Both the position numbers and the translations under genes were made by a program. Below are positions 1,431 through 61,619 of a stretch of DNA of 64,000 nucleotides, in pieces. The DNA comes from Megaustenia siamemsis (taxonomy: Eukaryota; Mollusca; Gastropoda; Stylommatophora; Ariophantidae), in contig JAVIAB010000092.1 in NCBI GenBank assembly GCA_032433765.1, forward strand, positions 106,384,279 through 106,448,278, written 5' to 3'. Numbering within the stretch: position 1 is the stretch's first letter; each line of letters begins with the position of its first letter. The notes under the pieces are model-generated. The model ran no database searches. It had not been told where the DNA came from and saw nothing but the letters and a program-made list of their open reading frames with translations.

Positions 1431-3212
1431 GTCACTCGAATTGACTGGTAATATGTTAGAGCTGACTCTAGAATTGACTGGTAATATGTTAGAGCTGACT
1501 CTAGAATTGACTGATAATATATTAGAGCTGACTCTAGAATTGACTGGTAATATGTTAGAGCTGACTCTAGAATTGACTAGTAATATGTTAGAGCTGACTC
1601 TAGAATTGACTGGTAATATGTTAGAGCTGACTCTAGAATTGATTGGTAATGTGGTAGAGTTGACCGACAATGTGGTAGAGCTGACTCTAGAGTTGACGGG
1701 GTAATGTGGTAGAGCTGACTGTAGAGTTGACCGACAATGTGGTAGAGCTGACTGTGGAGTTGACCGACAATGTGGTAGAGCTGACTCTAGAGTTGACTGG
1801 TAATGTGGTAGAGCTGACTCTAGAGTTGACTGGTAATGTGGTAGAGCTGACTCTAGAGTTGACCGACAATGTGGTTGAGCTGGCTCTAGAGTTGACGGGG
1901 TAATGTGGTAGAGCTGACTGTAGAGTTGACCGACAATGTGGTAGAGCTGACTGTAGAGATGACCGACAATGTGGTAGAGCTGACTCTAGAGTTGACCGAA
2001 AATGTGGTAGAGCTGACTCTAGAGTTGACCGACAATGTGGTAGAGCTGACTCTAGAGTTGACCGACAATGTGGTTGAGCTGGCTCTAGAATTAACTGCCA
2101 ATGTGGTAGAGCTGACTCTAGAGTTGACCGACAATGTGGTAGAGCTGACTCTAGAGTTGACCGACAATGTGGTTGAGCTGGCTTTAGAATTAACTGCCAA
2201 TGTGGTAGAGCTGACTCTAGATTTGACCGACAATGTGGTTGAGCTGGCTTTAGAATTAACTGCCAATGTGTTAGAGCTGACTCTAGAGTTGACCGACAAT
2301 GTGGTAGAGCTGACTCTAGAGTTGACCGACAATGTGGTAGAGCTGACTCTAGAGTTGACTGACAATGTGGTAGAGCTGACTCTACAGTTGGCCGACAATG
2401 TGGTAGAGCTGACTCTAGAGTTGACCGACAATGTGGTAGAGCTGACTCTACAGTTGACTGGTAATGTGGTAGAGCTGACTCTAGAGTTGATCGACAATGT
2501 GGTAGAACTGACTCTAGAATTGACTGACAATGTGGTAGAGCTGACTGTAGAGTTGACCGACAATGTGGTAGAGCTGACTCTAGAGTTGACCGACAAAGTG
2601 GTAGAGCTGACTCTAGAGTTGACCGACAATGTGGTAGAGCTGACTCTAGAGTTGACTGACAATGTGGTAGAGCTGACTCTACAGTTGACCGACAATGTGG
2701 TAGAGCTGACTCTAGAGTTGACCGACAAAGTGGTAGAGCTGACTCTAGAGTTGACCGACAATGTGGTAGAGCTGGCTCTAGAGTTGACCGAAAATGTTGT
2801 AGAGCTGACTCTAGAGTTGACCGACAATGTGGTAGAGCTGGCTCTAGAATTGACTGCCAATGTGGTAGAGCTGGCTCTAGAGTTGACCGAAAATGTGGTA
2901 GAGCTGACTCTAGAGTTGACTGCCAATGTGGTAGAGCTGACTCTAGACTGCCAATGTGGTAGAGCTGGCTCTAGAATTGACTGCCAATGTGGTAGAGCTG
3001 GCTCTAGAATTGACTGCCAATGTGGTAGAGCTGACTCTAGAGTTGACCGAAAATGTGGTAGAGCTGACTCTAGAGTTGACCGACAATGTGGTAGAGCTGG
3101 CTCTAGAATTGACTGCCAATGTGGTAGAGCTGGCTCTAGAGTTCATTGGCAATGTGGTAGATCTGACTCAAGAATTGATTGGGAATGTGATAGATCTAAC
3201 TCCGATAATGTG
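1431..3212 (+). repeat. 33-bp minisatellite, about 54 units
   Basis: The unit reads roughly GTAGAGCTGACTCTAGAG then TTGACCGACAATGTG, and nearly every unit holds a TCTAGA site. The first six units form a diverged subtype ending in GGTAATATG; later units end in GACAATGTG, GCCAATGTG or GAAAATGTG. Because the period is a multiple of three and the unit lacks stops, long open frames run on both strands (up to 455 and 346 codons). These show no start context or domain and I do not treat them as genes. A block of six units is duplicated, marked by the GACGGGG variant at about 1694 and 1893. Confidence 0.95.
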
Positions 3213-3290
3213 GTAGTTAGTACCATGTTTATGACCTACCCCAAAACCACACACAAACACATACATTTATAGCACCTATTTATGGCTAAG

Positions 3291-10833: not shown

Positions 10834-11690
10834 AAATAAAGAGACTGACTAATAAAAATAAAAAAAGCCACAGAAGGTGGATGCATTGCAGACAAAAAAG
10901 GAAAAATGCTAACAGACAATAAGGATATTATAGATAGATGGCAGGAATATATAACAGAATTATTTCAGGATCAAAGGGACAAGAAACCAGTTATAAAATG
11001 AACATCAGGCTATAAAATCTTAAAATATGAGGTGGAAAAAGCTATAAAGACAATGAAAAAGGGAAAAGCAGCAGGACCTGACAGCATAGAGGTGATACAG
11101 GAACTAGAAGATTTGGCATTGAAGTGATTACAGACATATGCAAAGACATATACCACACACGATACATACAAATGAACTAAAAACATCTTCTTTCATTGAA
11201 TTGCCTAAAAAGAATGGTGGAGTTGAATGCAGTGACTCTAAAACAATAAGCCTAATGAGCCATGTTACAAAAATCTTGCTGAAAGTTATACAAGGAAGGA
11301 TTCAGAATAAAATCAATACTGAATTAGATTAGCAGCAATTTGGATTTAGGAAAAATAGCGGGACAAGAGAAACCATATTCTGCACGAGAACATCGAAAAA
11401 TACACAGAAGTAAACAAACCAATATATGCCTGCTTCATAGACTAAACCAAAGCTTTTTATAGAGTACACCACAAACAACTTATAGAAAGCCTAAAAGAGA
11501 TACAATACATCTAGATGACATGGACATACGACTAATATGTAATCTATACTGGGAGAAAACAGCAATAATAAAATATAACAAAGAGACCTCTACACCCATT
11601 GATATAAAAAGAGGAGTAAGACAGGGATGCATCCTATCACCAAGCTTGTTCAATCTATACACTGAGCAAATTTTTTTTTTAAATCATAGA

Positions 11691-11696
11691 GATGCC
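11691..11696 (+). repeat. Polinton target-site duplication, left
   Basis: GATGCC here and at 19375-19380 directly flanks the inverted termini. Six base pairs is the duplication length known for Polintons. The equivalent uninterrupted site in another LINE-B copy (53043-53048, minus strand) reads GATGTC once. Confidence 0.93.
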
Positions 11697-12347
11697 AGTA
11701 GTATATTGGCATGTTTATGCATGTGAAAAGTTCAAGCATATGCACCGAAACTGCACCAAAGACAATGGATTTTGTACCGAAACCGCACCGTGCAAAACCG
11801 CGGCTTGACGGCTCGGCGTGATGGCTTATCTCGGTGGTCGTGCGGTGGGGCGTGACGGCTTATCTCGGTGGTCATGGCGTGCGGTGGGGCGCGATGACGT
11901 GACGGCTCGGTGGTCGGGTCGTTGTTGCGTGGGGAAAGGGACGCTACAATGCTGACGTGTTATTATAGCGGTTCTAAAACTTGGGGAAAGGGGGGACAGA
12001 GGTGTAGCGGTTCTAAAACTTGGGGAAAAGGTGCCTTATTGGTCGAAATGTAGTATCGTCGTTATCATCATGTGCCCGGTATTATTATAGCGGTTCTAAA
12101 ACTTGGGGAAAGGGTGCCTTTATTGGTCGAGTTTGTTATTAGTATCATCATGTGTCGATTGGCGTAAGATTGTGCTAACATTAAATAGTGACGATCTCGC
12201 ACTTTCACATTCAATGTAAAGCAAAATTCTCACTCTCTCTCTCTCTCTCTTTCACATTCAATGTAAAGCAAAACAAAATTCGTTCTATATTTCACAGTTT
12301 TTATTAATACAACACATATTTGAAAATTTATACTGTCCGGTTGTTGA
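11697..12347 (+). repeat. Polinton left terminal inverted repeat
   Basis: About 650 bp match the complement of 18730-19374 with small differences. The outer part is GC-rich with duplicated CGTGACGGCTTATCTCGGTG blocks. The inner part has three copies of GCGGTTCTAAAACTTGGGG, a short (CT)n run and two copies of TTCACATTCAATGTAAAGC. The inner end reaches into the 3' end of the protease gene. Confidence 0.93.
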
Positions 12348-12835
12348 ATTTGGGTTCCTTGGACCCTTCGAAATCGAAATAGCCACGGGGCGAGCAAACG
12401 ATAAATGATACGGTCGTTTATGTGCTGTCTCGATGAAAAAGGCATGAGAATTCTGTTAAGTTTCGCGCCACGACACTTAAGAAGTATATAATAAACACAA
12501 TATAGACCGCACGTGTTGCTAAACAAATCTTGCAACACCCGAGGGTTGTAGACGATTGGAACGTGTGAGTTTTGCTCTATACAATTTAAAATATCCACGT
12601 GTCTGGAAGGCAAACCGTAGGAATCGAAATACTCACATTCGCCGAGACCTTTGTAAAAAAGGGCCACCCAATGCTCACCAGGTTCGTCTGCCGGGTCGGT
12701 GTTTATGACAAAGGCCGCGGTCGCCGTTGGGTCGATGCTGGGCGGTAAGTGGTTTCGTGGAATGACACTAACAAGGGAACAACGTCGAACGAAAATATCC
12801 GACATCAAAAGGTTGTAAATCTCCCTCGTGTTCAT
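12230..12835 (-). CDS. adenain-like cysteine protease (Polinton PRO)
   Basis: This 201-codon frame is the only recognisable Polinton gene without an obvious lesion. The C5/Ulp1-type catalytic residues are all present: His55 in GEHWVALF, Asp71 in EYFDSYGLP, Gln102 and Cys109 in SNTCGLYCVYY. In adenoviruses and Polintons this enzyme matures capsid proteins. It starts with ATG 10 bp downstream of the capsid gene and runs leftward. Its last roughly 35 residues lie in the terminal inverted repeat, and the final RERERE comes from the (CT)n run, so the true functional C-terminus may be nearer residue 155. Expression is unproven. Confidence 0.88.
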   Translation of the reverse strand: MNTREIYNLLMSDIFVRRCSLVSVIPRNHLPPSIDPTATAAFVINTDPADEPGEHWVALFYKGLGECEYFDSYGLPSRHVDILNCIEQNSHVPIVYNPRVLQDLFSNTCGLYCVYYILLKCRGAKLNRILMPFSSRQHINDRIIYRLLAPWLFRFRRVQGTQIQQPDSINFQICVVLIKTVKYRTNFVLLYIECERERERE

Positions 12836-12845
12836 CTTCTTTCTC

Positions 12846-14149
12846 TCAAACTGCGAAGTCTGTTAGAATCTGCCTTGTCTTGGAAACCTCGAGCACTGAG
12901 TCCTACACGGCGCAGACGATAACTTGTAGGGGAGTAGTTGTGGGAGCGGCAAACTTGAATTCTATCGACAAGGGTCCGCTTGTGGCAAGCTCAAAATGGG
13001 AGCCGTCCAGTAGGCTGGATGAGAGGTCAAAACCAAATAGACAATATCCGTCCTTGAACTCTCTATAATCAACGTTATTCCCAGCGTCTTTACCAATCAG
13101 ACCCATGGTCAGATTTGTACCGAAATAGCTCTCGCGTATTGATTTCGTTCAAAGTCCATAGTTAGAGGCTTTCCCGAGATACAATTCCCGTCGACCGTTA
13201 GATTCATATAAATCAGACTAAAGTGTTGAAAATTGAACGGGTTAGCTGTATAAACACCATTAAACGCACTGGCCGTAATCAGACCTATCACTATACGAGT
13301 CGGTGTTTGAGACAAAAATAAATTGTCTTGACTGTGAGAGAACATCCCGCTAGCGATGGAAAATGTCTTGATGGTAACCCTCTTGATCGGGTACCGTGCA
13401 TTTCCGCTTAAAAGAGCCTTTTCGTGGGCCAGAGAAATCGAGGGGTTTAGCACAGCTTTCTTGACAACGAGCGCGGCGTAGGTGATAACACTCTTATAAC
13501 CCACAGAGCTATCGTGAGCCACTAGGCTGAACACATCCTTAGAGGGCGTGAGTTTGATCTTTACATCGACTCTGTTTAAGATGTAACGATCCTGCACAAA
13601 GACATCAGGGTGCAAACGACCCATCATTTCAACCTCTTTACTATTCGAAGTCAAATCGCGCCGTGTTTTAAAACCCTTATTTTCTTTCAAATCGTCATGG
13701 TGGCCAGCTGTATCTTTGTAGAACAGAGCGGCCGTCAAGTATCCCGTTTTCGCATCCTCCCCGTAGTTTAACGTAGCCTGAAACACTGCTCTAAAAGGAT
13801 AGGTATTCTCCGACGGTGTAACCAACGTGTCGTTTAGCGATACGTCGACTTGTGAAAATAGATTGTGAAGATAATTGTTGACTGGTCCTACTTCAGCATC
13901 GGGTGGTACACTATCACCATTCGGGAGGGTGATCTTGACTCGCAGATGCAAAAACGTGTTGAAAAGATCTAGATACTCCTCGCTGTTTCCAGAAATGAAA
14001 AACTCTATCGGTGCGCTAGGCGACAAGGCTGCGATCGGACGAATTTCAATAAACTGGCCAGAGTCTAGAGGTGTCTGTGTGGGTGGAACGCTAAATAAAT
14101 CCAAACCAGAGTGAAGACATTCACACGATTTGGGGTGAATTAGGGACAT
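12846..14149 (-). pseudogene. major capsid-like protein (Polinton), broken
   Basis: The frame opens at ATG 14149 and runs 346 codons to 13109. The homologous reading then continues in another frame down to a stop at 12846-12848. Features typical of the Polinton double-jelly-roll capsid family are a PIEFFISG segment near residue 50, NNYLHNLFSQVDVSLN near 110, TYPFRAVFQATLNYG near 140, and a C-terminal GYCLFGFDL segment in the second frame. Two lesions are visible: a one-base frameshift near 13131 and an in-frame TAG at 12903-12905. Total length would be about 430 codons, shorter than many family members. It lies between the small virion-like gene and the protease. The assignment rests on motif recognition and context, not a search. 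Confidence 0.82.
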
Positions 14150-14154
14150 TATTA

Positions 14155-14541
14155 GTCGAAAATATCCTTTGCCACCCTCGTCTTCTTGCTGTTGTGCACC
14201 AAATGAAGGGGGAACTGTCTAGCTGTCGGTTTTATCCTCTTCGTAACGGGTTCCCCTGTTGGAGGTAACTTCATAACTCGCTTTCTGCTTTATCGTAAAC
14301 CACTTCCTGATTGGTTGTTACCACTCAGGTGGTCTACGGCCCCGTGTATCAACCGCTGACCGGCCTCCTTAGCTTGTTCTTTGAAAGCTTCACCGACATT
14401 TTCCCCGGCTAATGCGTCCTGTGCGACCTGCAGACCGGTCCCCAATCCTTCTCTGAGCAAGGCCTTACCGCCGGTTTTTAACCAGGGTAAAATAGCCCTC
14501 CCAACTCCACCAAAGAAACTACCGATTCCTCGACCGCTCAC
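14155..14541 (-). pseudogene. small amphipathic virion-like protein (pVI/X-type), broken
   Basis: The frame starts Gly-Arg-Gly-Ile-Gly and an amphipathic SFFGGVGRAILPWLK stretch, followed by an Ala/Glu-rich helix and then, past an in-frame TAA at 14290-14292, a basic Pro-containing tail of 44 codons ending just before the capsid start. In adenoviruses and relatives, small proteins of this kind are virion core or membrane-active components; the role here is inferred from composition and position. The expected first codon is GTG (14539-14541) right after in-frame stops, so the start codon also seems lost. Two lesions make it a pseudogene. Confidence 0.6.
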
Positions 14542-14716
14542 CCTCTATTACAGTGAAATAATTTAGCGGAAACTGTATCTCCACCAGTGCAAGCGCATAC
14601 TACGTCGAAATGTCAATGGTCGAAATGTCAATGAGGTTAACGAAAAAGTGGTCGGGGTTATTATCCTCAAAAAGTTCCATAGATGCATTGCTGGGTAGGG
14701 TGACATAAAAACTCAT
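14519..14716 (-). pseudogene. penton-like minor capsid remnant
   Basis: An ATG at 14714-14716 begins MSFYVTLPSN and continues SMELFEDNNPDHFF, then an in-frame TAG at 14600-14602, then YALALVEIQFPLNYFTV. This start and the VEIQFP motif match what I know of the Polinton penton-like single-jelly-roll protein. The frame ends at 14519 after only about 65 codons and overlaps the next gene by about 23 bp. Most of the fold is therefore missing, in addition to the nonsense codon. It is too interrupted to appear as a long open frame. Confidence 0.6.
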
Positions 14717-14726
14717 TTTACTCGTT

Positions 14727-15011
14727 TCACCGTCGCCTCTCCAAGTTTTGATTCTGTAGCATGTAACCCAAACAGCTGTTCAGTATCCACAGTTTTCCCT
14801 CCTTTGCTTTTGGCTGTACGGTTGTCAGATTGAACAGCGAGACCGCGACAACGTTATATATAACTACCACTTGACAAATAAAGACAAGTTCTAAGTAGGG
14901 GGATAGTTTCCCAAACACCGACCCCAGCGTGGTTCGCTCTCTTCTCACTCCCGAGTTTACGGCTCGCAAATCGGGCTTTCCAAAAGTTACCACTTCTTCT
15001 TTTTCTCTCAT
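14727..15011 (-). CDS. small hypothetical protein with one membrane segment
   Basis: A 94-codon frame starts at ATG 15009-15011, just after the integrase stop, and ends 10 bp before the penton-like start. It has a charged N-terminus (MREKEEVV) and one hydrophobic stretch around residues 40-60 (LELVFICQVVVIYNVVAVSLF) that could cross a membrane. The tight spacing fits the compact leftward gene block. I do not recognise a family, and it could be a chance frame. If real, it would be a small membrane protein of the element. Confidence 0.4.
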   Translation of the reverse strand: MREKEEVVTFGKPDLRAVNSGVRRERTTLGSVFGKLSPYLELVFICQVVVIYNVVAVSLFNLTTVQPKAKEGKLWILNSCLGYMLQNQNLERRR

Positions 15012-15013
15012 CT

Positions 15014-16083
15014 CTAGTTTTTGTATCTGACAATGTCCTTGGACGGTATCCAACTGTTAAATGAGGAATCGTACCCAAACCATTTGACTAAACTCTCTTT
15101 TCGCCCAAATGATGTGCGACGCTCGGTTATGATACTCTCGATTCTGTACTCGTGCTTGTCTCCAACTTTTTGAATTTCTGGTGTGTATAATGACCCTTCT
15201 ATCGCATCGTCCTTATCGTCTTTCAACACATATAAACCGGGTTTGTTTCATTTACTCGACTGATGGAAAACAGTTCCTCCGTCCAAGCCGGGACATAACC
15301 CTTTTTAAAATTGGCTCTGCCCAGGACCAGTCTAACTGGATCACCAGGCTTATACAGGGGTCTTTTAAATTTAAAGTTGCGTTTGCTATTATACAACGTG
15401 TTCCATACCTGGTCTTGATTGTCTGCGTTGACGACGACCGGTGCCATTTTTATACTTCTGTGATACGAATGTTTATAACTTCGAAGTAGGGCGGGTAGGA
15501 CTCTGACATAAGTCAGTTTATTGGATTTTTTGAAATATCGCCACACCCGCTGTTTCAGAGTCCTATTAAAACGTTCCACAACGGCGGCCTTAATATCTTC
15601 GTTCTGTGTAGTGAAAAAGTGAACGTTGTTGACAGCAAGGAATTTCTGAAATGTTCTGTTCAGAAACTCTGACCCCTTATCCGTTTGAAAACTCGCGGGT
15701 TTCCCATCGAGAAATATCTTACCGATGGCTTCCACTAAGGATTTCCCCGTTTTGGTTCGTATTGGTACAGACCACGCGAATTTACTGAAAACGTCCACGC
15801 AAGAAACCAAATAGGAATACCCATCGTTGTGGTTTTTCAAATGTCTCAAATCAATTAGATCTGCCTGATATTGCTGTTGGGGGCCACTCGTTATAATGGG
15901 ACGCCTTTCAAATCTGCGACGAATTGCTTTATGAAGGGTATAGGTATCCTGATGACTCAACCATTGTTTGATCTTTGCGAGTCCCAGTTTGGTGTTACAC
16001 TGCAGGGCCGTTGCACTACTATACGCCTCTGGTCGACTAGGGCCAAAGTAATGACGTCTCAATATTTTCCCCACCGTTCCCAT
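15014..16083 (-). pseudogene. Polinton DDE integrase with chromodomain, frameshifted
   Basis: The main frame (16083-15223, 286 codons) is a retroviral-type integrase core: Asp75 in QADLIDL, Asp135 in QTDKGSEF and Glu170 in AAVVERFNR. The spacing of the last two is the DD35E pattern. Before the core lies an N-terminal helical segment with YTLHKAIRRRFER. After it comes a KPGDPVRLVLG SH3-like segment. The C-terminal chromodomain (EYRIESIITERR, LVKWFGYDSSFNSWI) is in another frame at 15229-15014. A two-base frameshift near 15230 separates them. The enzyme would insert the element and make the 6-bp duplication. Catalytic residues survive but the chromodomain is cut off. Confidence 0.9.
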
Positions 16084-16511
16084 TTTGGTGTTGGGATTCC
16101 GCTCTTTCTTTTTTAAGTCTCAGTTTATACGTGGTTACAGGCGGAGTGGTTTCATTACCTAACTTTGGGGTTTCCGCTGGTGGTGGTGGCGTCTTGGTCT
16201 GCTCTGGTGATACCTCGATTGATGGTGGGGAAGGTGTTTTTTTCTGTTGACGTGCTGTGTTGAATGAGATCGACCGAGCCCAATGAACGTCGTTTATACT
16301 GCTCCAATCTAGTTAAATATTGATGCAGAGCACGTTGGTACACTCTGGCCTTATCAGCGGGTGCTAAATCATCGCGGAATAGGATACGTTGCATTTCATC
16401 ATCTAAATCTCTCAAGTTGTCACCGATCGCCTCGGGTGGGGTATAAGTGCTTGTAGTTTGTTTAAAACCTTCGAGGAATCGAGGATCCATCAAAATATTT
16501 CTTTTGGCCAT
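16020..16511 (-). pseudogene. hypothetical Polinton protein with Pro-rich tail, frameshifted
   Basis: The frame opens MAKRNILMDPRFLEGF and has an acidic helical region (LRDLDDEMQRILFRDDLAPADKARVYQ, residues about 33-60) followed by YLTRLEQYKRR. An apparent frameshift near 16250 leads into a Pro/Thr-rich stretch (TPSPPSIEVSPEQTKTPPPP) and then a basic KLRLKKERAES end that overlaps the integrase start. A helical head with a Pro-rich linker and basic tail recurs in Polintons as far as I know, but its function is unknown to me. It sits between integrase and the 108-residue gene. Confidence 0.55.
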
Positions 16512-16513
16512 TG

Positions 16514-16840
16514 TTACGCACCTAGTACTCCACCGAGAATACTTAATATAGGACGGAGCAAAGCACCTATGAACCCACCGGTTTGTAGAATCTCTTTCCG
16601 CCGCTTAAGATTCGGTTTCTTTTTAGTGAGAAGTCTCAACTTCTTCTTGTGTCGACGTAGCTCGCACATCTGTCGCTGAGTGAGTCTAACATTACCTTTT
16701 AATATGTTATGACAACACTCGCACAAAAAGTTAATGAGTTTGGGAGAGGCTGTTTTTAATATGGCTCTTAAATCGCTCGGCGAGGCGTCGCGCATACATT
16801 TCAATATTTCACCGTGTCGTCTAAGTGATTCATCACACAT
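16514..16840 (-). CDS. small basic hypothetical Polinton protein
   Basis: An uninterrupted 108-codon frame starts at ATG 16840, 6 bp after the ATPase stop, and ends 2 bp before the next gene, so it fits a tightly packed leftward block. It has a helical N-terminus with paired cysteines (FLCECCHNIL), a very basic centre (RRHKKKLRLLTKKK, KRRKEIL) and a glycine/hydrophobic end (GGFIGALLRPILSILGG). The basic core plus hydrophobic Gly-rich end suggests a small DNA-binding or membrane-active virion protein. That role is inference from composition. Confidence 0.6.
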   Translation of the reverse strand: MCDESLRRHGEILKCMRDASPSDLRAILKTASPKLINFLCECCHNILKGNVRLTQRQMCELRRHKKKLRLLTKKKPNLKRRKEILQTGGFIGALLRPILSILGGVLGA

Positions 16841-16846
16841 GATTCT

Positions 16847-17478
16847 CTACTTTGGCACGTAGACGATTTGTCTCTCCCCTGGGAACATGTTTGTTCTCAA
16901 CCTAAGATTATCAGTTGTGTCCTGACGAAGATCAACCAGCAAATAACCGTGAGGAGACGCGACAGACGCTTTCGCGTCCTTAAAACTATCTTGGAGGTAC
17001 CCCACCTGGCCTGGGTACATTTGTTTAGCCAGATTGATAATTTGACTTCCGTCTCTCGGGTTCTTGAGAAGGACTAAATAGTGCGTATTAAGACTTATGG
17101 TTCGATGTTCTTTATTTTTTCCGAACAGATTTTGAACAATGTACATCACACTAATATCTCTGTGATGACTACCTTTGGTGAATAATATTGTTATCGGCTC
17201 ATCCGTTTCAGACATCAAATCATCGATGATGATCAGTCTTCTCTTCTTACCACCTTCCAATTTATCGACGTCTGGTAGACCTCGATAAATCTCACTGACC
17301 CCATAGTCTCGTATATCGGTTGCCATTCCGCATAACACCATATAACTTCCTCCGGTACGGGGACAGCTAACTCATGAAGGTTCTGTATAAACTTTTGCAC
17401 AAATACCGTTTTCCCACACCCTGTAGGACCGGCTATCAGAGCTGTGAAGGGATGATTCCATCGGGGATCCATCCTCAC
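16847..17478 (-). pseudogene. packaging-type ATPase (A32/FtsK-like), frameshifted
   Basis: The first frame (17478-17233) has the Walker A loop GPTGCGKT at residues 17-24 after a PFTALIA strand, then EEVIWCYAEWQPIYETM. The second frame (17341-16847) has GLPDVDKLEGG, the Walker B strand RRLIIIDDLM, a TKGSHHRDISVMYIVQNLF sensor-like segment and a C-terminal RQIVYVPK. The two overlap in different frames and a one-base shift near 17280 is the simplest explanation. Adenovirus, NCLDV and Polinton relatives use this ATPase to package DNA into capsids. All key motifs survive but not in one frame. Confidence 0.88.
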
Positions 17479-17779
17479 AAGTGCTACAAATTTTAATGAT
17501 TACGCCACCGACTAAATAACAACGAGTGATTTTAGGTCAGCGCGCGAGGTTTCCCCTCTTCAATTAACACCTATTTTAACATCCACATACTATATAAACA
17601 CTACAGGGGTTTCCTAGTCTCAAGCCGCATTACCTGAGACCGAATTATTTCACGCATCGTCGTCCAGGTCAGGTGGGGATTTCCCACATATCACCTTACT
17701 GGTTCAGTTCCAGGGGTCACTGAACATGTCGCAACATAACGTATCACCACGCCTGACAACGTATTGCGTTAGCTACTAT

Positions 17780-17899
17780 AGCATGGGCGTAATACTGACC
17801 ACATTACCCCAAAAATCATGTGCTGAAGGTCTGTAAAATATAGGGTCACTAACACCATATTTCCCTATACGCCACTTGGCGTGACGGGGGTAGTTTACT
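17780..17899 (+). mobile_element. SINE-1 fragment inside Polinton
   Basis: The segment from GCATGGGCGTAATACTG to GTGACGGGGG and TAGTTTACTT matches the 3' half of SINE-1. The possible duplication TACTAT at 17774-17779 and 17900-17905 is short, so the exact ends are tentative. It is the youngest recognisable layer of the nest. Confidence 0.8.
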
Positions 17900-17937
17900 T
17901 ACTATGAATAGACGGTCCTCGACTCGAAAACCGTAAG

Positions 17938-17946
17938 GGTATAAAG
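17938..17946 (+). promoter_or_regulatory. TATA-like box upstream of rightward Polinton gene
   Basis: GGTATAAAG lies about 85 bp before the ATG at 18027, with a TCAGT initiator-like motif at 17957-17961. The spacing between the two is shorter than usual for TATA and initiator, so this is only suggestive. Confidence 0.3.
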
Positions 17947-18026
17947 CCCCAGTCGATCAGTGTACACACACACACACACATAACCAGCGTCTGTTGCCAG
18001 GTGGCTTGTGTTTGTTTTCTTTTAAT

Positions 18027-18786
18027 ATGGAGTCGTGTAGCTTGAATACGCCAACTTCGTTGGATGTCAGTGATCAGCGCATATTTATGTCACGTGGTAA
18101 TGAGACTGTAGTTTCATTGTCTAAAGATGGCGTTAAGGCAGTCTCGGTTTGTGTTTTTCCTAACAGACCATTGATAAATATAGGACATATAGCGGTGATA
18201 GTTTTTTTTTTTTTAATTGCCTACCAGAACTTGGATAACACTATCGAGAGAGGAATTTATCACGTTAGTTGAGATGCGAGAGGAAATTTTAACCGCTTAT
18301 GCTAACATCAACTACACGCCACCTCTCGTTAACCAGATCAACTACACGCCACCTCTCGTTAACCAGATCAATTACACGCCGCCTGTTGTTAACCACCAGA
18401 ACTACACACCATCTCTTGTTAACCACCAGAACAACATACCATCTCTTGTTAACCCGAATCTCATCAACTACACGCCACCTTTTGTTAACCAAGGGAACCT
18501 CACTCTTGTTAATCAGACGACAGATCTGGCAGCCAATATGGATGCCCCGGGTGTTTCAGCAGAGTCACCAATTACCTATTCCAGCTTTGATCAAGGTTTT
18601 GTCAAAATAGAGGGCGGTTATGTTTTGAAGGCTAATGAAACTTCCTATGCACCTGTGTTTGATAGACATTTACCACAAACAGATAGTACCACCAAAACAG
18701 GAGGGAGGAAACCCAGACGTAAAAAATTACAACAACCGGACAGTAATATATTTTCAAATATGTGTTGTATTAACAAAAAACTGTGA
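18027..18786 (+). pseudogene. PC4-like domain protein with 10-residue repeats, frameshifted
   Basis: The first frame starts MESCSLNTPTSLD and contains VSLSKDGVKAVSVCVF and PLINIG. After a poly-T run (about 18201-18212) the homologous reading continues in another frame with LPTRTWITLSREEFITLVEM. The order of a basic strand region, an I-R/I-G turn, then LPT followed by a TLSREEF helix resembles the PC4/p15 single-stranded-DNA-binding coactivator domain. This is followed by about seven copies of NYTPPLVNQI-type repeats (18306-18510), then an acidic to basic tail (GGRKPRRKKLQ). The C-terminus lies in the right inverted repeat. It may regulate transcription or coat DNA; both are inference. It is the only rightward gene. 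Confidence 0.5.
18306..18510 (+). repeat. 30-bp coding tandem repeat
   Basis: Units of about 30 bp (AACTACACGCCACCTCTCGT then TAACCAGATC) encode NYTPPLVNQI-like decapeptides. Later units vary (NYTPSLVNHQ, NNIPSLVNPN). The first two are identical, which suggests recent slippage. Confidence 0.9.
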
Positions 18787-19374
18787 AATATAGAACGAAT
18801 TTTGTTTTGCTTTACATTGAATGTGAAAAAGAGAGAGAGAGAGAGTGAGAATTTTGCTTTACATTGAATGTGAAAATGCGAGATCGTCACTATTTAATGT
18901 TAGCACAATCTTACGCCAATCGACATATGATGATACTAATAACACACTCGACCAATAAAGTCACCCTTTCCCCAAGTTTTAGAACCGCTATAATAACACC
19001 TGGCACATGATGATAACGACGATACTACATTTCGACCAATAAGGCACCCTTTCCCCAAGTTTTAGAACCTCTACACCTCTGTACCCTCCTTTCCCCAAGT
19101 TTTAGAACCGCTATAATAACACGTCAGCATTGTAGCGCTCCTTTCCCCACGCAACGACGACCCGACCACCGAACCGTCACGCCCCATCGCACGCCACGAC
19201 CACCGAGATAAGCCGTCACGCCCCACCGCACGACCACCGAGATAAGCCGTCACGCCGAGCCGTCAAGCCGCGGTTTTGCACGGTGCGGTTTCGGTGCAAA
19301 ATCCATTGTCTTTGGTGCAGTTTCGGTGCATGTGATTTTAATTTTCACTTGCGTAAACATGCCAATATACTACT
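18730..19374 (-). repeat. Polinton right terminal inverted repeat
   Basis: This is the inverted match of 11697-12347. The inner end covers the last codons of the rightward gene. The two repeats have diverged slightly by substitutions and small indels, including in the (GA)n run at 18830-18843, consistent with an insertion that is not recent. Confidence 0.93.
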
Positions 19375-19380
19375 GATGCC
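19375..19380 (+). repeat. Polinton target-site duplication, right
   Basis: GATGCC, identical to 11691-11696. LINE-B sequence resumes directly after it. Confidence 0.93.
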
Positions 19381-20198
19381 AGGCCAACAAATTAATGGAA
19401 AGATAATCAATAACCTAAGATATGCTGACGATACTGTACTACCAGCATAAAATACTAAAGATCTACAACAAGTGCTAATGAAATAAACATGACAAGCAAA
19501 TAATATGGACTAGATATGAATATCAAAAAGACTAAAATTATGATCATAAACAAGGAAGATACTCAAAACCTACAAGTGGATATAAAATAGAAGGAATAGA
19601 CCTGCAGACAGTTCAGAACTACAACTACCTTGGACATACTGTAACCAGTGATGGAAAATGTACAACTGAAATAAACAAAAGAATAGGAATGGCAAAAAGT
19701 AATTTTAATGTCATGAAGAACATATTAACATCAAAACAAATAACACCAGTGCTAAAACTAAGAATAGCAAAATGTTACATCTTCTCAATATTCCAATATG
19801 GTGCAGAAACATGGACATTAGACAAGAAAACAGAACAGAGAATTGAAGCCTTTGAAATGTGGATATATAGAAGAATAGGTAGAACTGGATGGAAGGAAAA
19901 GAAAACAAACAATGAAGTCTTAAAACAACTAAAAATGAAAAGAGAACTACTAAGCACAATTCAAACAAGACAAATGCGATTTTTGGGCCATGTTAAAAGA
20001 CACAACAGCCTACTAAAAGTAATCCTGGAGGGGAAAATACAAGGTAAAAGAGGCAGATGCAGACCAAGACTAACATGGACGAGTAACATCAAAAGATGGA
20101 CAAATCAGCCTACGACAACCTGCACCATCAAAGCAAGAGACAGAGCAGAATGGCGCTCCATGGTAGCCAACCTTCGTTGCGGAGAAGGCACTCGATGA
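19381..20198 (+). pseudogene. LINE-B reverse transcriptase C-terminal part
   Basis: Directly after the Polinton the RT catalytic motif YADD (19421-19432) appears in NNLRYADDTVL. After a stop and frame changes, a 169-codon open frame (19689-20198) carries YGAETWTLDKK, MWIYRRIGR, KMKRELLSTIQTRQMRFLGHVKRH and GKRGRCRPRLTW, ending in RCGEGTR next to the (GAT)n tail. The GHVxRH and basic GRPR segments mark the C-terminal region of many LINE proteins and may bind RNA or DNA. Stops upstream make it non-functional. Confidence 0.88.
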
Positions 20199-24724: not shown

Positions 24725-27460
24725 TGACGACCTCAGTAATCATCCAACTATAGACAGATCGTATTTCTCTGGGCTCTCCACCCCTTCCCCCACCTCAAAA
24801 AAATATTATATAAGACGATCTTAAATAGAATAAAAGATTAAGCTGACGCAAGTCTGGTTTTAGAAATGGTAGATCCTGCAGGGACCAGATAACAACACTA
24901 CGTTTAATTATGGAAGAGGCAATGGAATGGAACTCCCAACTATATTATGTCAGCTTTCTTGTCTACGAAATGGCTTTTGACAGAGCAGACCGAAACACCT
25001 TGGAAACTAAGACACTATGGAATACCAGACAAGCTAGTCAACATCATTACAAATTCATATGGATGAATGACTCGCAGAATAGTACATGAAGGACAACAGA
25101 CAGATTGAGTTATAAAAACCGCGATTAGACAGCGAAATCTACTGTCATGTTTTCTTATTTCTGCTGGCAGTGAACTGCATTATGAAAAAAGCCACAATAC
25201 ACATTAAGAATATAATTCAATTGGTTTCATGGTGGGATAAACCATACGTACCGGTTTGAACAGAGCAGAGCTGTTTTTGTCATATTTCCTGCCCGACACA
25301 TCTTTTTAAAAAAAAATGTTAAATTTGTAGCGCACTTCCTTAAGGATGATAAATCAGAAAGGATAATAAATAAGAAGAGATGGATAAAGAGATGCCAGAC
25401 ACCTTTAGGAATGAAGAAATGTGACGGAAAAAACAAATCAACATCACCGTAGAAAATTATAGGTAAAATATTCTGGGGATGGATGCGACATACAATGAGC
25501 CAGTGACTCTACTGGTGATGGATGCGACACACAATGGGTCAGTGACTCTACTGGTGATGGATGCGACACACAATGGGTCAGTGACTCTACTGGTGATGGA
25601 TGCGACATACAATGAGCCAGTGACTCTACTGGTGATGGATGCGACACACAATGGGTCAGTGACTCTACTGGTGATGGATGCGACATACAATGAGCCAGTG
25701 ACTCTACTGGTGATGGATGCGACACACAATGGGTCAGTGACTCTACTGGTGATGGATGCGACACACAATGAGCCAGTGACTCTACTGGTGATGGATGCGA
25801 CACACAATGAGCCAGTGACTCTACTGGTCATGGATGCGACACACAATGAGCCAGGGACTCTACTGGTGATGGATGCGACACACAAAGGGTCAGTAACTCT
25901 ACTGGTGATGGATATGACACACAATGAGCCAATAACTATTCTGCTGGTGATGGATATGACACACAATGAGCCAGTAACTCTACTGTTGATGGATATGACA
26001 CACAATGAGCCAGTAACTCTGCTGGTGATGGATGCTACACACAATGGGTCAGTAACTCTGCTGGTGATGGATGCGACACACAATGGGTCAGTAACTCTAC
26101 TGGTGATGGATGCGACACACAATGGGTCAGTAACTCTACTGGTGATGGATGCGACACACAATGGGTCAGTAACTCTGCTGGTGATGGATGCGACACACAA
26201 TGGGTCAGTAACTCTGCTGGTGATGGATGCGACACACAATGGGTCAGTAACTCTGCTGGTGATGGATGCGACACACAATGGGTCAGTAACTCTACTGGTG
26301 ATGGATGCGACACACAATGGGTCAGTAACTCTACTGTTGATGGATGCGACACACAATGGGTCAGTGACTCTACTGGTGATGGATGCGACACACAATGGGT
26401 CAGTAACTCTACTGGTGATGGATGCGACACACAATGGGTCAGTAACTCTACTGGTGATGGATATGACACACAATGAGCCAATAACTATTCTGCTGGTGAT
26501 GGATATGACATACAATGAGCCAGTAACTCTGCTGGTGATGGATATGACACACAATGAGCCAGTAACTCTACTGTTGATGGATATGACACACAATGAGCCA
26601 GTAACTATTCTGCTGGTGATGGATATGACACACAATGAGCCAGTAACTCTGCTGGTGATGGATATGACACACAATGAGCCAGTAACTATTCTGCTAGTGA
26701 TGGATATGACACACAATGGGTCAGTAACTCTACTGGTGATGGATGCGACACACAATGGGTCAGTGACTCTACTGGTGATGGATGCGACACACAATGGGTC
26801 AGTGACTCTACTGGTGATGGATGCGACACACAATGGGTCAATAACTCTACTGGTGATGGATGCGACACACAATGGGTCAGTGACTCTACTGGTGATGGAT
26901 GCGACACACAATGGGTCAGTGACTCTACTGGTGATGGATGCGACACACAATAAGCCAGTAACTCTGCTGGTGATGGATATGACACACAATAAGCCAGTAA
27001 CTCTGCTGGTGATGGATATGGCACACAATGAGCCAGTAACTATTCTGCTGGTGATGGATGCGACATACAATGGGTCAGTGACTCTACTGGTGATGGATGC
27101 GACATACAATGAGCCAGTGACTCTACTGGTGATGGATGCGACACACAATGAGCCAGTAACTATTTTGCTGATGGATGTGACACACAATGAGCCAGTAACT
27201 ATGCCGGTGATTGATGGGACATACAATGCGCCAGCGAATCTACAAGAATTTACCAGACAAGATCCCACAAGGAACCTACAGGGAAAAAAGAAAACAGAGA
27301 AGGCCTAAAAACCTATGGAAGCAAAACGTTGAGACCTACTGCAATGATAAATTACACCTGGAAACAATTAGAGCAGACAGGAAAGAACGTAATGGATCAG
27401 AGAGCTTGTTCGTGGCATATGTTCCACGGGGAGTGCAAAGGTCAAAGCCTGGATAGAATA
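24725..27460 (+). mobile_element. LINE-D copy expanded by an internal minisatellite
   Basis: Broken frames from 24725 match LINE-D RT: LSNHPT, ILNRIKD, SGFRNGRSCRDQITTLRLIMEEA and FLVYEMAFDRADRNTLE. The C-terminal part before the array reads KRWIKRCQ and FWGWMRHTM. After the array it resumes GHTMRQRIYKNLPDKIPQGT and KRKQRRPKNLW, the GHxxR and basic motifs of the LINE tail. The 1.7-kb array at 25475-27215 therefore lies within this motif. Many stops interrupt the RT. Confidence 0.75.
25475..27215 (+). repeat. 39/42-bp minisatellite, about 44 units
   Basis: The main unit is GATGGATGCGACACACAATG then GGTCAGTGACTCTACTGGT (39 bp). A 42-bp variant with an extra TTC in ACTATTCTGCTG appears in two blocks (about 25900-26040 and 26455-26715). 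The unit is stop-free in several frames, giving 600-codon open frames on both strands. Those are by-products of the period, not genes. The block order shows that a mixed segment was duplicated. Confidence 0.95.
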
Positions 27461-29130: not shown

Positions 29131-29757
29131 GTATGGAAAGAGTTAAATACCAGACAGACAGTTCAGAGCAACAACTACCGTTGAGATACTATAACCAGTT
29201 ATGGAAAATGTAAAACTGAAATAAACCACACAAAAAAAGGAATTGCAAAAAAGATATTTTAATGCCATGAAAAATATACTATCATCAAAACAAATAACAC
29301 CAGGACTAAGACTAAGAATAGCAAAATGTTATATCTTCTCAACATTCCTGTATGATGCTGAAAAACATGGACATTAGACAAGAAAACAGAACAGAAAATT
29401 GAAGCCATTGAAATGTGGATTTATAGAATAATAAGAAGAATTTTATGAAAAGAAAAGGAAACGAATCATAACGACTTAAAATCACCAAAAAAATGAAAAG
29501 AGAACTACTAAACACAATTCAAACAAGACAAATGAGACTATTTGAGCATATTAAAAGACACAGAAGCCTACTAAAAGTAAACTTGGAAAGGAAAATACAA
29601 GGTAAAAGGAGCAGAGGCAGACTAACACGGACGAGTAATGTCAAAGGGTGGACAAGTCAGCCTTTGACAACCTGCACTATTAAAGCAAGGAACAGAGCGT
29701 AATGGCTCTCCATGGTAACCAACCTTCGATGCGGAAACGGCACTCAATGATGATGAT
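29130..29757 (+). mobile_element. LINE-B, 5'-truncated
   Basis: The translation follows the LINE-B C-terminus with several frameshifts: QTDSSEQQL, LRLRIAKCYIFSTF, KMKRELLNTIQTRQMRLFEHIKRH, SLLKVNLERKIQGKR and LTTCTIKARNRA, then RCGNGTQ and a GATGATGATA tail. No catalytic part is present. Confidence 0.85.
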
Positions 29758-29789
29758 ATATTAGGTTAGGCGTGCAACAATTGACAGAT

Positions 29790-30165
29790 GCACTGAGTTG
29801 TCCCGGTCGTTGGCGACAAATGCACTGAGTTGTCCCGGTCGTTGGCGACAAATGCACTGAGTTGTCCCGGTCGTTGGCGACAAATGCACTGAGTTGTCCC
29901 GGTCGTTGGCGACAAATGCACTGAGTTGCCCCGGTCGTTGGCGACAAATGCACTGAGTTGTCCCGGTCGTTGGCGACAAATGCACTGAGTTGTCCCGGTC
30001 GTTGGCGACAAATGCACTTTGTCCCGGTCGTTGGCGACAAATGCACTGAGTTGTCCGGTCGTTGGCGACAAATGCACTGAGTTGTCCCGGTCGTTGGCGA
30101 CAAATGCACTGAGTTGTCCCGGTCGTTGGCGACAAATGCACTGAGTTGCCCCGAAAGCTGGCGAC
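29790..30165 (+). repeat. 32-bp minisatellite, about 11.5 units
   Basis: The unit is GCACTGAGTTGTCCCGGT then CGTTGGCGACAAAT. Copies are almost identical apart from two short deletions near 30016 and 30054. Because 32 is not a multiple of three, three frames are open in turn on the minus strand. Confidence 0.95.
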
Positions 30166-30174
30166 AAACACACA

Positions 30175-31685
30175 ATTATCTTTCCCCTGGCGCTAGCAAC
30201 ACAAACACTTGTCTTCCACCCGGGCGCTGGTCATACAAATACCTGACTTCCCCGGCGCTGGTCATACAAATACCTGACTTCCCCGGCGCTGGTCATACAA
30301 ATACCTGACTTCCCCGGCGCTGGTCATACAAACGTTTTTCCCCCGGGCGCTGATCATGCAAATACATATCTTCCCCCGGGCGCTGGTCATACAAACACTT
30401 GTCTTCCCCGGGTGCTAGCAACACACACACTTGTCTTGCTCCAGGCACTGACAATACAAACACTTGGCTTCTTCCAGATGCTGACAACACAAACACCTGT
30501 CTTGTTCCAGATGCTGACAATACAAACACTTGTCTTGTTCCAGATGCTGGCAACAAAAAACACTTGTCTTGTTCCAGATGCTGACAACAAAAACACTTGT
30601 CTTGTTCCAGATGCTGACAACACAAACACTTGTCTTGTTTCAGGTGCTGACAACACAAACACTTGTCTTGTTCCAGATGCTGACAACACAAACACTTGTC
30701 TTGTTCCAGGTGCTGACAACACAAACACCTGTCTTGTTCCAAGTGCTGACAACACAAACACTTGTCTTGTTCCAGATGCTGACAACACAAACATTGGTCT
30801 TGTTTCAAGTGCTGACAACACAAACACTTGTCTTGTTCCAAGTGCTGCAACACAAACACTTGTCTTGTTCCAGGTGCTGACAACACAAACACTTGTCTTG
30901 TTCCAGGTGCTGACAACACAAACACTTGTCTTGTTCCAAGTGCTGACAACACAAACACTTGTCTTGTTCCAGATGCTGACAACACAAACACCTGTTTTGT
31001 TCCAAGTGCTGACAACACAAACACTTGTCTTGTTCCAGGTGCTGACAACACAAACACTTGTCTTGTTCCAGGTGCTGACAACACAAACACTTGTCTTGTT
31101 CCAAGTGCTGACAACACAAACACTTGTCTTGTTCCAGATGCTGACATAACAAACACCTGTTTTGTTCCAGGTGCTGACAACACAAAAACTTGTCTTCCCC
31201 CGAGCGCTGGTCATACAAACACTTGTCTTCCGCCTGCCGCTGGTTATAAAAACACTTGTTTTCCCCTGGCGCTGGTCATACAAACACTTGACTTCCCCCG
31301 GGCGCTGGTCATACAAACACTTGTCTTCCCTGGGAGCTGGTCACACAAACACCTGTCTTCCCCCGGGCGCTGGTCATACAAACATTTGTCTTACCCCAAG
31401 CGCTGACAACACAAACACTTGTCTCGCCCCGAGCGCTGACAACACAAGCACTTGTCTTGCCCCTACACTGGCAACACAAACACTTGTCTTGTTCCAGGCG
31501 CTGGTAATACAAACACTTGTCTTGTTCCAGGCGCTGGCAACAAAAACACTTGTCTTGCCCCGAGTGCTAGCAACACAAACACTTGTCTTGCCCCCAGAGA
31601 GCTGCAACACACACATTATCTTCCACCGGGGGCGCTGGCAACAAATACTTGTTTTGCCCCTGGCGCTGTCAAAACACCCTATGCC
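30175..31685 (+). repeat. 33-bp minisatellite, about 45 units, graded
   Basis: The central unit is GCTGACAACACAAACACTTG then TCTTGTTCCAGAT. Both flanks carry a variant with CCCCGGGCGCTGGTCATACAA. The left edge merges with the 32-bp array through intermediate units (GCTGGCGACAAACACAC). The long open frames on both strands follow from the period and show no domain. Confidence 0.95.
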
Positions 31686-31689
31686 ACCG

Positions 31690-32260
31690 TCCCCAATATA
31701 CGACGGGGCGCTACGAAGTTATTCTCTGTCTTCTTCTTTGGCTTAACAAATCATTCTTGTTATGTTCTTATCGGTGCAGAAAAAACATGTTGCATGAAAT
31801 GGTAATAGTCGACTTATAACTGACTAATGGATTTTATTGAATCAAAGCTGACCAAGACGCGATAACCATCCTCACATGATAATCCCAAAAACAAGCTACT
31901 CGACCTTCCCAATAGAGTGTGGATTAAATAGGTAAAATTCTCAACCCCCAAAAATATTTCGTGATGAACCCGGTACATCTGATCGAAAAGCACAAATGTG
32001 ACAGCCACGTGACACAGCATGCCATATGTCATATTTTGGGCCAGCGACAAAGAAGAAGATGTCATTATGTTTCTATGCCCCAGAATAAATGGGATCATTC
32101 TCCTGCAATTTTCTGACACAAATTAATGCGGGCCATGTGTCTGAGCAGCTTTCAGTCCACAGTAATTAGTATCACAGACTGCAGACTAGATGAAGAAAAC
32201 ACGCTGAGAGAAAAAGAACTTGTTGTAGATTAATATTTGAGACATGGGGAGTGAGACATG
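31690..32260. other. no gene recognised
   Basis: A 101-codon open frame on the minus strand (32119-31814) has no recognisable motif. No repeat is apparent. Confidence 0.45.
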
Positions 32261-52214: not shown

Positions 52215-53725
52215 TACCTTTCATCATCATCGAGTGCCTTCTCCGCAACGAAGGTTGGCTACCATGGATCGCCATTCTACTCTGTTTCTTGCTTTGATGG
52301 TGCAGGCTGTCATAGATTAACTTGTCCATCTTTTGATGTTACTCGTCCATGTTAGTCTTGGTCTGCCTCTGCCTCTTTTACCTTGTATTTTCCCTTCCAA
52401 TATTACTTTTATTAGGTTGTTGTGTCTTTTAACATGCCCTAAAAATTTCACTTGTCTTGTCTTAATTGTATTTAGTAGTTCTCTTTTTTATTTTCAGTTG
52501 TTTTAAAACTTCATCGTTTGTGTTCTTTTCTTTCCATCAAATTCTACCTATTCTATAAATCCACATTGCAAAACCTTCAATTTTCTGTTCTGTTTTCTTG
52601 TCTAAGTCCATGTTTCTTCACTATACAGGAAAATTGAGAAGACGTAACATTTTGCCATTCTTAGTTTCAGCCCTGCTGATATTTGTTTTGTTGTTAGTAT
52701 ATTTTTCATAGCATTAAAATTACTTTTTGCCATACCTGTTGTTTTGCTTATTTCAATTTATATTTTCCATCACTGGTTACAGTATGTCCCAGGTAGTTGT
52801 AGCTCTGGACTGTCCCCAGATGTATTCCCTCAACTGTGATATTTAATTGTAGGTCTTGAGAATTTTCTTTGTTTAAGATCATAGATTTAGTCTTTTTGAT
52901 ATTCATATCTAATCCATATTTTTTGCTTGTTATGTTTATCACATTAAGCAATTGGTGTAGGTCTTTAGGATTTTCTGCTACTAGAACAGTATCATCAGCA
53001 TATCTTAGGTTATTGATTATCTTTCCATTAATGTTTAGACCTGACATCTCTGAGATGTTTTTAAAGATTTGCTCAGTGTATATAGATTGAACAAGCTTGG
53101 TGATAGGATGCATCCTTGTCGTACTCCTCTTTTTATGTCCATGGGTGTAGAGTTCTCCTTGTTATATTTTATTATTGCTGTTTGCTCCTAGTACAAATTG
53201 CATATTAGTCGTATGTCTGTGTCGTCTAGATTTATATCCTTTAGGCAGTTTATAAGTTGGTTATGGTGTAGTCTATGAAGCATGCATATATTGGTTTGTT
53301 TACTTCTATGTACTTTTTAATCAATGTTCTCATGCTAAATATGGCTTCTTTTGTGCCACTGTTTTTCCTGAATCCAAATTTTTGCTCATCTAATTCAGTA
53401 TTGATTTTATTCTGACTCCTTCCCTGTAAAACTTTTAGTAAAATTTTTTATTACCTGGCTCATTAGGCTTATTATTCTGAAATCACTGCATTCAACTGCA
53501 CCACTCTTTTTAGGCAATGCAATGAAAGTTGATGTTTTTAGTTCGTTTGGTATGTATCCTGTATGGTATATGTCATTGCACATGTCTGTGATCACTTCGA
53601 TGCCAAATATTCTAGTGCCTGTATCATTTCTATCTGTATATTGTCAGGTCCTGCTGCCTTTCCCTTTTTCATTGTTTTTATAGCTCTTTTACCTTTATCT
53701 GGGTTTATTTTGTTGATTTGATCAT
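52215..53725 (-). mobile_element. LINE-B, longest uninterrupted copy
   Basis: Read on the minus strand it begins near KGKAAGPD, continues with MITDMCNDIYHTGYIPNELKTSTFIALPKKSG, FGFRKNSGT, NKPIYACFIDY, then IYTEQIFKNI, NNLRYADDTVLVAENPKDL, MNIKKTKSMILNKE, SYNYLGHTVTSDG and the C-terminal KRGRGRPRLTW to a GATGATGA tail. The region between SIYTEQIF and YADD is continuous here, whereas the copy at 9600-20206 has the Polinton at that place. Stops and frameshifts make it non-functional. Confidence 0.88.
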
Positions 53726-55854: not shown

Positions 55855-56750
55855 GATTTCTAATAATAGAGCCACACATCTATAATCGCACGATTTGTAC
55901 AATATTTTAACTGATATGAATAATATTGTTTTTTTTTTAAATATGAATTAGGCTAACGAGAAATCTGGCGTTCTTATGTTAAGTCGACTATTTGTTGGGC
56001 AGCAGTTTCTTTATTAACAAGGCGGATATATTTCAATAATAGCAGCTCGAACATACGAAAGTAAACAATTTATTAAACCGTTTGAAATCAGCTTTTGTTT
56101 CGTTTTTGTGTTTCTTGTTTGACTTGCCCTGGGGTTTAGCCATTCTCTTGACGCTTCTCCAAACAGTCTCGACCAGGATGTTATTGACTTTGTTTTTAAC
56201 TTTTTTTTTTTTTTTGGCTCAAACAAAAAATATCTTCACAAGCTGACGAATGTCTAGATTTTTATTTGTTAGTTTTTTGTTTGTTTATTTTTTTTTTTTT
56301 ACACGTGGTAAAATAAAATGCATTTATGGTAAATTTTATCTTCTATTTATGTAACAATTGAAAAAAAAAGTATTACGTTAACCAGCGAACTAATGGAAAA
56401 TATGCGTATTGTAGTAATTTATGGAATATGAGAGGGAGTGGTCTATTGTCTCGATTTATGATCAGATAAACGAAATGAAGGAAGGAAAAGAACCAAGATT
56501 ATAAAAAAGGTACCGGAGGGTGACAAAGTGCAATGTGCCTGATGCCAAAGGCTTATTATTTTATTAAATGAGACCATGGAGCTGAAATTTAAAAAAAGAC
56601 GGGATATCAGAGCGATAAAGAATAATTTTCCTTTATGTGAATAGAGAATACAGAAGGAAGAAAATAATTAAAAACAAAATATGTGGGGAGAAAAGGATGA
56701 AATGGCGTAAGGAATAAATACGTAAAGGAATTGGGTAGAGTGAGAGGAGG
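55855..56750. other. no gene recognised
   Basis: AT-rich non-coding DNA with poly-T runs near 55929, 56203 and 56288. No supported feature. Confidence 0.5.
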
Positions 56751-56754
56751 TAAT

Positions 56755-57345: not shown

Positions 57346-57349
57346 CATA

Positions 57350-61600: not shown

Positions 61601-61619
61601 GGTAATTTCCGTACAATCA

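Follow-up and report, generated by a model that had tools for sequence, protein, structure and literature searches.

The 64,000 nucleotides analysed here (the window throughout), from the gastropod Megaustenia siamemsis (GCA_032433765.1, contig JAVIAB010000092.1, positions 106,384,279 to 106,448,278 of the forward strand), contain a Polinton-like element of 7,678 bp. It spans positions 11697-19374 with GATGCC on either side and encodes capsid proteins and an integrase, and no DNA polymerase of the protein-primed B type (PolB) was found in it by Pfam scans, frame reading or two PolB queries. This copy has decayed, and it belongs to a lineage that lacks PolB. We regard it as rather probable that this is a lineage of Polintons coding for capsid and integrase, copied extrachromosomally by a PolB provided in trans and inserted by its own integrase.

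The genome assembly (2.59 Gb, 155 contigs) was searched with the outer 204 bases of the element, as the first-pass annotation of the window had proposed, and other elements with the window-type termini were indeed recovered, with 52 matches among those listed (954 first-look candidates, 40 scored) and genes of the capsid block in 15 of the 20 stretches fetched around them. Six two-ended copies (L031-L036), spanning 7.7-8.8 kb, share a constant order of protease, major capsid protein (MCP), 84-aa frame, penton-like gene, integrase, p149 (truncated in L032), p110, ATPase and a PC4-type gene. The best preserved reading comes from a single copy (L051 and L052) of 8,962 bp, which is bounded by the target-site duplication (TSD) TGCGTT and has eight single open frames, with the rve core and the chromodomain of the integrase in one frame where the window copy has two. 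Both ends were sought at 14 loci with a script that tolerated an end shift of up to 15 bases. Nine loci have exact 6-bp duplications (one of them, L040/41, being a composite of two elements), two have five of six bases (L032 and L048), and three gave no resolved pair (L038/39, L042 and L037, the last of which is a stretch between elements). Among ten further copies with predicted ends fetched, seven have both ends and exact 6-bp TSDs and measure 8,637-9,591 bp; two of the others apparently have their right end beyond the fetched kilobase, and for one no end pair was found. The MCP of the window matched at all 117 scored places (of 3,887 first-look candidates), namely its own and 116 others at 93-95% identity, L051 among them, and the match is stop-free at 115 of the 117. 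When the two PolB queries were run against the window and L031-L075, matches below E 1e-3 were obtained only in L053, which is a PolB locus, and in L050. Some further observations concern these copies. On C137, the stretch between two elements (L037) ends on both sides in the arms of a long inverted repeat of about 1.5 kb with 98% identity, and three terminus matches in the same orientation lie about 1.93 kb apart on C154 (39401643, 39403576 and 39405517), as if an inverted-repeat piece had become a tandem array. A homogenisation of the terminal inverted repeats (TIRs) was considered, the outer 300 bp being 0.93 identical within elements (0.74-0.99) and 0.79 between them on average (15 elements), and was dropped as too weak; the shuffled control is rough.

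These copies could also be internally deleted complete Polintons with no stable life of their own, carried by the complete ones. For this, apparently complete elements are present in the genome, there are short derivatives (L043, L049 and L050) that have TIRs and TSDs, and the window copy itself has lost about 690 bp of its penton-like gene relative to L051, with the junction near 14538. The explanation nevertheless appears unlikely, considering the at least 116 further places with an MCP 93-95% identical to that of the window, nearly all of them stop-free, and the eight open frames of L051. The ratio of nonsynonymous to synonymous substitution rates (dN/dS) is likewise below 1 for the MCP, penton-like and integrase genes in the comparisons made; between L051 and L031 it is 0.22, 0.20 and 0.28, respectively, and 0.26 for the protease. 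A derivative copied in trans would, in part, also fit the explanation that we prefer. As a separate observation, L033 is a mosaic, with MCP and protease genes diverged from L051 (dS 0.40 and 0.67) and a close ATPase gene (dS 0.06), as after recombination between lineages.

The gene content beside the ATPase also speaks against simple deletion. In the window lineage this place is occupied by a gene on the opposite strand, the frame of which in L051 has a PC4 domain (E 1.1e-7, above cut-off), whereas in the colinear relative L076 (QGON01000029.1, 11,769 bp, a contig in the metagenome-assembled genome (MAG) of a tubeworm endosymbiont) a PolB frame of 1,409 aa adjoins the ATPase. The rest of L076 follows the order ATPase, p110, p186-like frame, integrase (45% identical), penton-like gene, 84-aa-like frame, MCP and protease, the p186-like and 84-aa-like frames being recognised by eye. 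A second such contig, L077 (8,358 bp, from a marine MAG), codes for a penton-like protein, an MCP and a protease, and pieces of PolB face these genes; both contigs, although placed in bacterial MAGs, are probably animal contamination. The PC4-type frame was found in nine other loci, stop-free in five and with stops in four. All five stop-free frames match PC4, above the cut-off in L044, L047 and L032 and below it in L041 and L042 (E 0.012 in the latter). The Pfam profile scan did not match the domain in the window's own frame, and phmmer returned no homologue of the PC4-type protein.

PolB genes are present elsewhere in the genome. An initial view that they are rare (PF03175 gave 12 matches at six loci) was overturned by L050, a 5.0-kb element in decay that has termini of the window type, the TSD CACACA and a piece of PolB but no capsid gene: all 150 scored places (6,651 first-look candidates) matched this piece, and 25 of them have an open frame of 1,400 aa or more. 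L050 and a second short derivative, L049, have termini and exact 6-bp TSDs, and they also hold a frame that, judged by eye, resembles a LINE-type reverse transcriptase. A distant second Polinton lineage is represented by L053 (C137:9129500-9139400), which combines a 1,025-aa PolB frame containing an endonuclease VII domain with an integrase only 25-29% identical to that of the window lineage. Among the matches listed, none of the 150 PolB places lies within 40 kb of any of the 117 closest MCP places. The idea that this had suggested, of PolB and capsid genes always lying in different elements, was withdrawn when their motifs were found near each other at 23 of 100 MCP sites in the overlay described next.

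Degenerate DNA motif patterns, matched exactly and with zero matches in the reversed control for every pattern, identified 1,517 MCP, 1,440 PolB, 1,265 integrase and 1,191 (597 and 594) generic-terminus sites across the genome. From the first approximately 100 listed places per motif, they were overlaid in a sample of about 142 Mb (contig C1 and the first 51.6 Mb of C8) that holds 100 MCP, 83 PolB, 76 integrase and 59 terminus sites; those listed outside this sample were excluded. No PolB motif lies within 12 kb of 77 of the 100 MCP sites. The other 23, where 1.4 would be expected by chance, comprise 14 with PolB converging at 4.5-4.6 kb, seven with PolB diverging at 8.1-8.3 kb and two otherwise arranged, so that complete Polintons are apparently also present in the genome. 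Conversely, 60 of the 83 PolB sites have no MCP motif within 12 kb, and 59 of these have no integrase motif within that distance either, while an integrase motif lies upstream on the same strand at 41 of the 77 orphan MCP sites and at 19 of the 23 with PolB. Eleven of the 117 closest MCP copies fall in the sample, and none of their sites has a PolB motif nearby. A decayed gene escapes an exact motif, and the numbers of orphans are accordingly maxima; integrase tracks MCP and avoids solitary PolB, however, and motif loss alone is therefore an insufficient explanation of the orphans.

Some PolB and capsid elements have the same ends. The 34-base terminus of L051 (up to three mismatches) occurs at 27 plus 25 sites, which pair into 21 convergent pairs; 18 of them span 5.6-9.6 kb and the others 0.3, 13.8 and 24.2 kb. 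For the generic terminus, 23 pairs within 30 kb were found among 100 listed sites, 11 of them of 8.5-9.9 kb; terminus pairs of sizes outside 7.7-9.6 kb thus also occur. A PolB lies inside two shared-terminus pairs, one of 10.7 kb (C1:64627516-64638194) with a TSD of five of six bases and no MCP or integrase motif, and one of 13.8 kb (C107:37769394-37783203) located by its termini and PolB match only. The decayed L050, with a window-type rather than a generic terminus, is the third PolB-bearing element with shared ends.

Such a distribution raises the question of a true bipartite virus, in which two kinds of element with the same termini, one coding for capsid and integrase and the other for PolB only, would be obligate parts of one genome. 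The separation of the gene sets (the 59 of 60 PolB sites above), the common termini and the similar motif counts for MCP, PolB and integrase all agree with it. We nonetheless consider it improbable, given that apparently complete elements coexist with the divided ones, that only two PolB elements with generic termini were located, both known by their termini and PolB, and that 32 of the 60 solitary PolB sites form 16 close inverted pairs, so that many may be rearranged copies. A specific version, a bipartite Polinton with obligate capsid/integrase/PC4 and PolB-only parts, derived from a one-piece ancestor whose complete relatives persist in the genome, is doubtful too, if slightly less so.

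The inverted pairs bear on how the elements are copied. In L048, the MCP-protease end is present twice in inverted orientation within a TSD of five of six bases, and C1:18835655-18844190, whose topology was judged from its MCP places, is arranged like L048, with the TSD AGCGTT read from the ends on both sides. In the overlay sample, all five close MCP pairs face outward, as do all 16 close pairs among PolB sites without MCP (with a terminus between the members in three, and one pair 88 bases apart); among the genome-wide places listed, both MCP pairs and six of seven PolB pairs are outward, and one PolB pair is inward. Inverted copy-back structures with a single duplication around them most likely arose before integration, and these elements point to extrachromosomal replication preceding it. 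They suggest a linear replication intermediate and thereby argue against a PolB-independent transposon, moved by its rve integrase with host replication only, in a Ginger-like or copy-out-paste-in manner, as do the dN/dS values below 1 of the capsid genes. To our knowledge, Ginger transposons have no capsid block. As described in the passages cited, they are cut-and-paste elements with a Gypsy-type integrase between TIRs, a precedent for this mode and a point of likeness, although Ginger1 has a 4-bp TSD and TGTNR ends (PMC2836005) where the window element has a 6-bp TSD and AGTAGT ends. On balance we rate a PolB-independent transposon as very unlikely.

Under the explanation that we prefer, copying of a PolB-less lineage in trans, the element would be copied as linear extrachromosomal DNA by a PolB that complete or PolB-only relatives supply and that recognises the AGTAGT terminus. 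PC4 binds single-stranded DNA, and the PC4-domain protein may perhaps act on single strands during copying. Capsid proteins encoded by the element itself would then package the copied DNA, and its rve-chromodomain integrase would insert it, with a 6-bp duplication.

Several points weigh against this explanation. Searches by exact motif turn decayed genes into false orphans, as only 41 orphan MCP sites out of 77 having an integrase motif shows, and 23 of 100 MCP sites do have PolB near, 21 of them at two stereotyped distances. Only 17 of these 77 sites have the generic terminus nearby, as does none of the 23 MCP sites with PolB; the apparently complete elements may therefore carry other ends and may not be helpers. 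Only two PolB elements with generic termini were located, one with a TSD of five of six bases, and both are known by their termini and PolB. Apart from L051 and L031, the other seven comparisons gave mostly higher dN/dS (MCP 0.23-0.57, integrase 0.20-0.49, penton-like 0.03-0.60, protease 0.35-0.70), values that are raised by decay of the compared copies, and constraint on the PC4-type frame is weak (0.53-0.86 in eight comparisons). No particle or extrachromosomal DNA is seen, and host polymerases may be the copying enzymes instead.

The boundaries and GATGCC repeats given in the first-pass annotation are confirmed by TSD reading and TIR alignment. Both termini start AGTAGTATATTGGCATG, as it had noted, and alignment of 11697-12351 with 19374-18724 gives 620 identities in 647 aligned bases (96%) with 12 gap positions over about 655 bp; a repeat search recovered three main TIR arms at 94-95%. 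The annotation had also held that a LINE copy within the window shows the same target uninterrupted. The flanks joined in silico (11400-11696 and 19381-19700) do align with the minus strand of 52722-53312 as one continuous LINE (513 identities in 584 aligned bases with 39 gap positions; the score is 815, the best of 50 shuffles reaching 152), and AGAGATGTCAGG is found exactly at 53040-53051 on that strand. The target there, GATGTC, is nevertheless one base off GATGCC, and the stretch is a paralogous LINE copy and not an empty allele; insertion and duplication are therefore proven, the allelic state is not. The coordinates of all features are collected in Table 1.

Table 1. Features of the Polinton-like element and of its insertion site in the window
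Feature	Position	Strand	Basis
Left LINE flank	11401..11690	+	Flank alignment
Left TSD, GATGCC	11691..11696	none	Sequence and end alignment
Left TIR, starts AGTAGT	11697..12351	+	Repeat search and alignment
Adenain-like cysteine protease frame, 3' end enters TIR	12230..12862	-	PF00770 E 0.0013, 18.9 bits, cut-off 21.3
Capsid protein, C-terminal part, separate frame	12903..13148	-	Frame comparison
MCP, main part, 346 aa	13109..14149	-	Protein relatives; fold of relative
Conserved frame of 84 aa, located between the capsid and penton-like genes	14290..14544	-	Conserved among copies
Penton-like minor capsid gene, N-terminal remnant	14600..14779	-	Comparison with L051
Integrase chromodomain, separate frame	15014..15247	-	PF00385 E 1e-6, above cut-off
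Integrase core (rve)	15223..16119	-	PF00665 E 1.3e-12, above cut-off; PDB integrases matched
149-aa conserved frame (p149; 186-aa frame in L051)	16155..16604	-	Conserved among copies
110-aa conserved frame (p110)	16514..16846	-	Conserved among copies
Packaging-type ATPase, C-terminal part	16847..17371	-	Frame comparison
Packaging-type ATPase, P-loop part, different frame	17233..17499	-	PF02456 E 2.1e-4, 20.7 bits, cut-off 21
Opposite-strand gene, first part, frame broken; PC4 domain in related copies	17937..18272	+	Frame comparison
Same PC4-type gene, second part, with 30-bp repeats	18217..18786	+	Repeat and frame comparison
Right TIR	18724..19374	-	Repeat search and alignment
Right TSD, GATGCC	19375..19380	none	End alignment
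Right LINE flank	19381..19700	+	Flank alignment
Uninterrupted paralogous LINE stretch, target at 53040-53051	52722..53312	-	Flank alignment and exact reading

In the window copy, the capsid, integrase, ATPase and PC4-type genes are split into pieces across frames, and the main part of the MCP is shorter than the 433-438 aa of most listed relatives. By its predicted fold, the MCP is a double jelly-roll capsid protein: the model of a relative, P0001 (pLDDT 74; 69% identical to the window protein), matches the capsid proteins of the iridovirus SGIV, of PBCV-1 and of mavirus (best E 2.7e-16). For the ATPase, PF02456 scores 18 bits in L051 and 21.8 in the colinear relative, the only one of the three to exceed the cut-off; for the protease, PF00770 stays below its cut-off in L051 (18.2 bits) as in the window. 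The penton-like gene is presumed to be such from its position, and its L051 frame shows 31-32% identity to L076 and L077 frames; the 84-aa frame, also by its position, may resemble adenovirus pVI. The named protein relatives listed for the window are from gastropods; scans of IMG/VR with integrase and MCP gave no relative, and there was no match in the phage collection. A tree of MCPs groups L051 with 11 database proteins (support 1.0) and is uninformative on PolB. MCP and integrase genes seem to share short contigs, their two lists having 15 exact contig sizes in common (119 of 120 rows sized in each), against a mean of 1.6 and a maximum of 7 in shifted controls. Elsewhere in the window, long minisatellite-like arrays at 1886-3272, 25457-27308, 29744-31746, 56668-57357 and 59478-61616 are open on one or both strands and are repeat-like rather than gene-like.

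What emerges is a class of elements below 10 kb with virion and integration genes and without polymerase, abundant in this genome and open-framed in the fully read copy (L051), with PolB genes also standing apart. This suggests a virus family with genes divided between partners. If the elements are copied in trans, they would link Polintons to satellites and to multipartite viruses, a question testable inside one genome. Among the titles and abstract openings listed by the literature searches, no report was found on loss of PolB with integrase kept, on bipartite Polintons or on PC4 in Polintons.

From the perspective of known systems, the Polinton label assigned in the first-pass annotation holds for the termini (AG/(AGT)2 TIRs), the 6-bp TSD, the integrase with rve core and chromodomain and the double jelly-roll type of capsid, but no protein-primed PolB was found, several genes are broken, and the 7,678 bp fall short of the roughly 12-25 kb of Polintons/Mavericks. 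We know of no integrase-coding bidnavirus. According to the passages cited here and below, vertebrate Mavericks have (AGT)2 or (AG)3 ends, a 6-bp TSD and intact lengths of 12.7-24.6 kb (PMC8097293), and share with the window lineage the (AGT)2 termini, TSD length, rve integrase and capsid genes, and have ATPase and protease genes of the kinds to which the window's frames are putatively assigned (PMC8097293, PMC4028283); they differ in size, the window lineage measuring 7.7-9.6 kb, and in the PolB not found in it. Their copy numbers, at most 38 intact and up to 287 in all per genome (PMC8097293), are not directly comparable with the 116 or more capsid genes of 93-95% identity found here, since these are counts of genes and not of intact elements. 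Polintons have been described as self-synthesising or self-replicating (PMC2836005), and a capsid survey excluded elements below 10 kb as incomplete (PMC4028283). Bidnaviruses, a group with segmented members, have an adintovirus-class PolB, and differ in their parvovirus capsid and helicase (PMC11071296). Adintoviruses and 'meldviruses' have an integrase with a C-terminal chromodomain and adenovirus-like virion genes, as does the window lineage (PMC11071296), although the adintovirus-type PolB that, with the hexon, defines adintoviruses was not found in the window element. The same source mentions genomes with virion genes that have neither a recognizable PolB nor a recognizable integrase (PMC11071296); the window lineage, in contrast, keeps its integrase.

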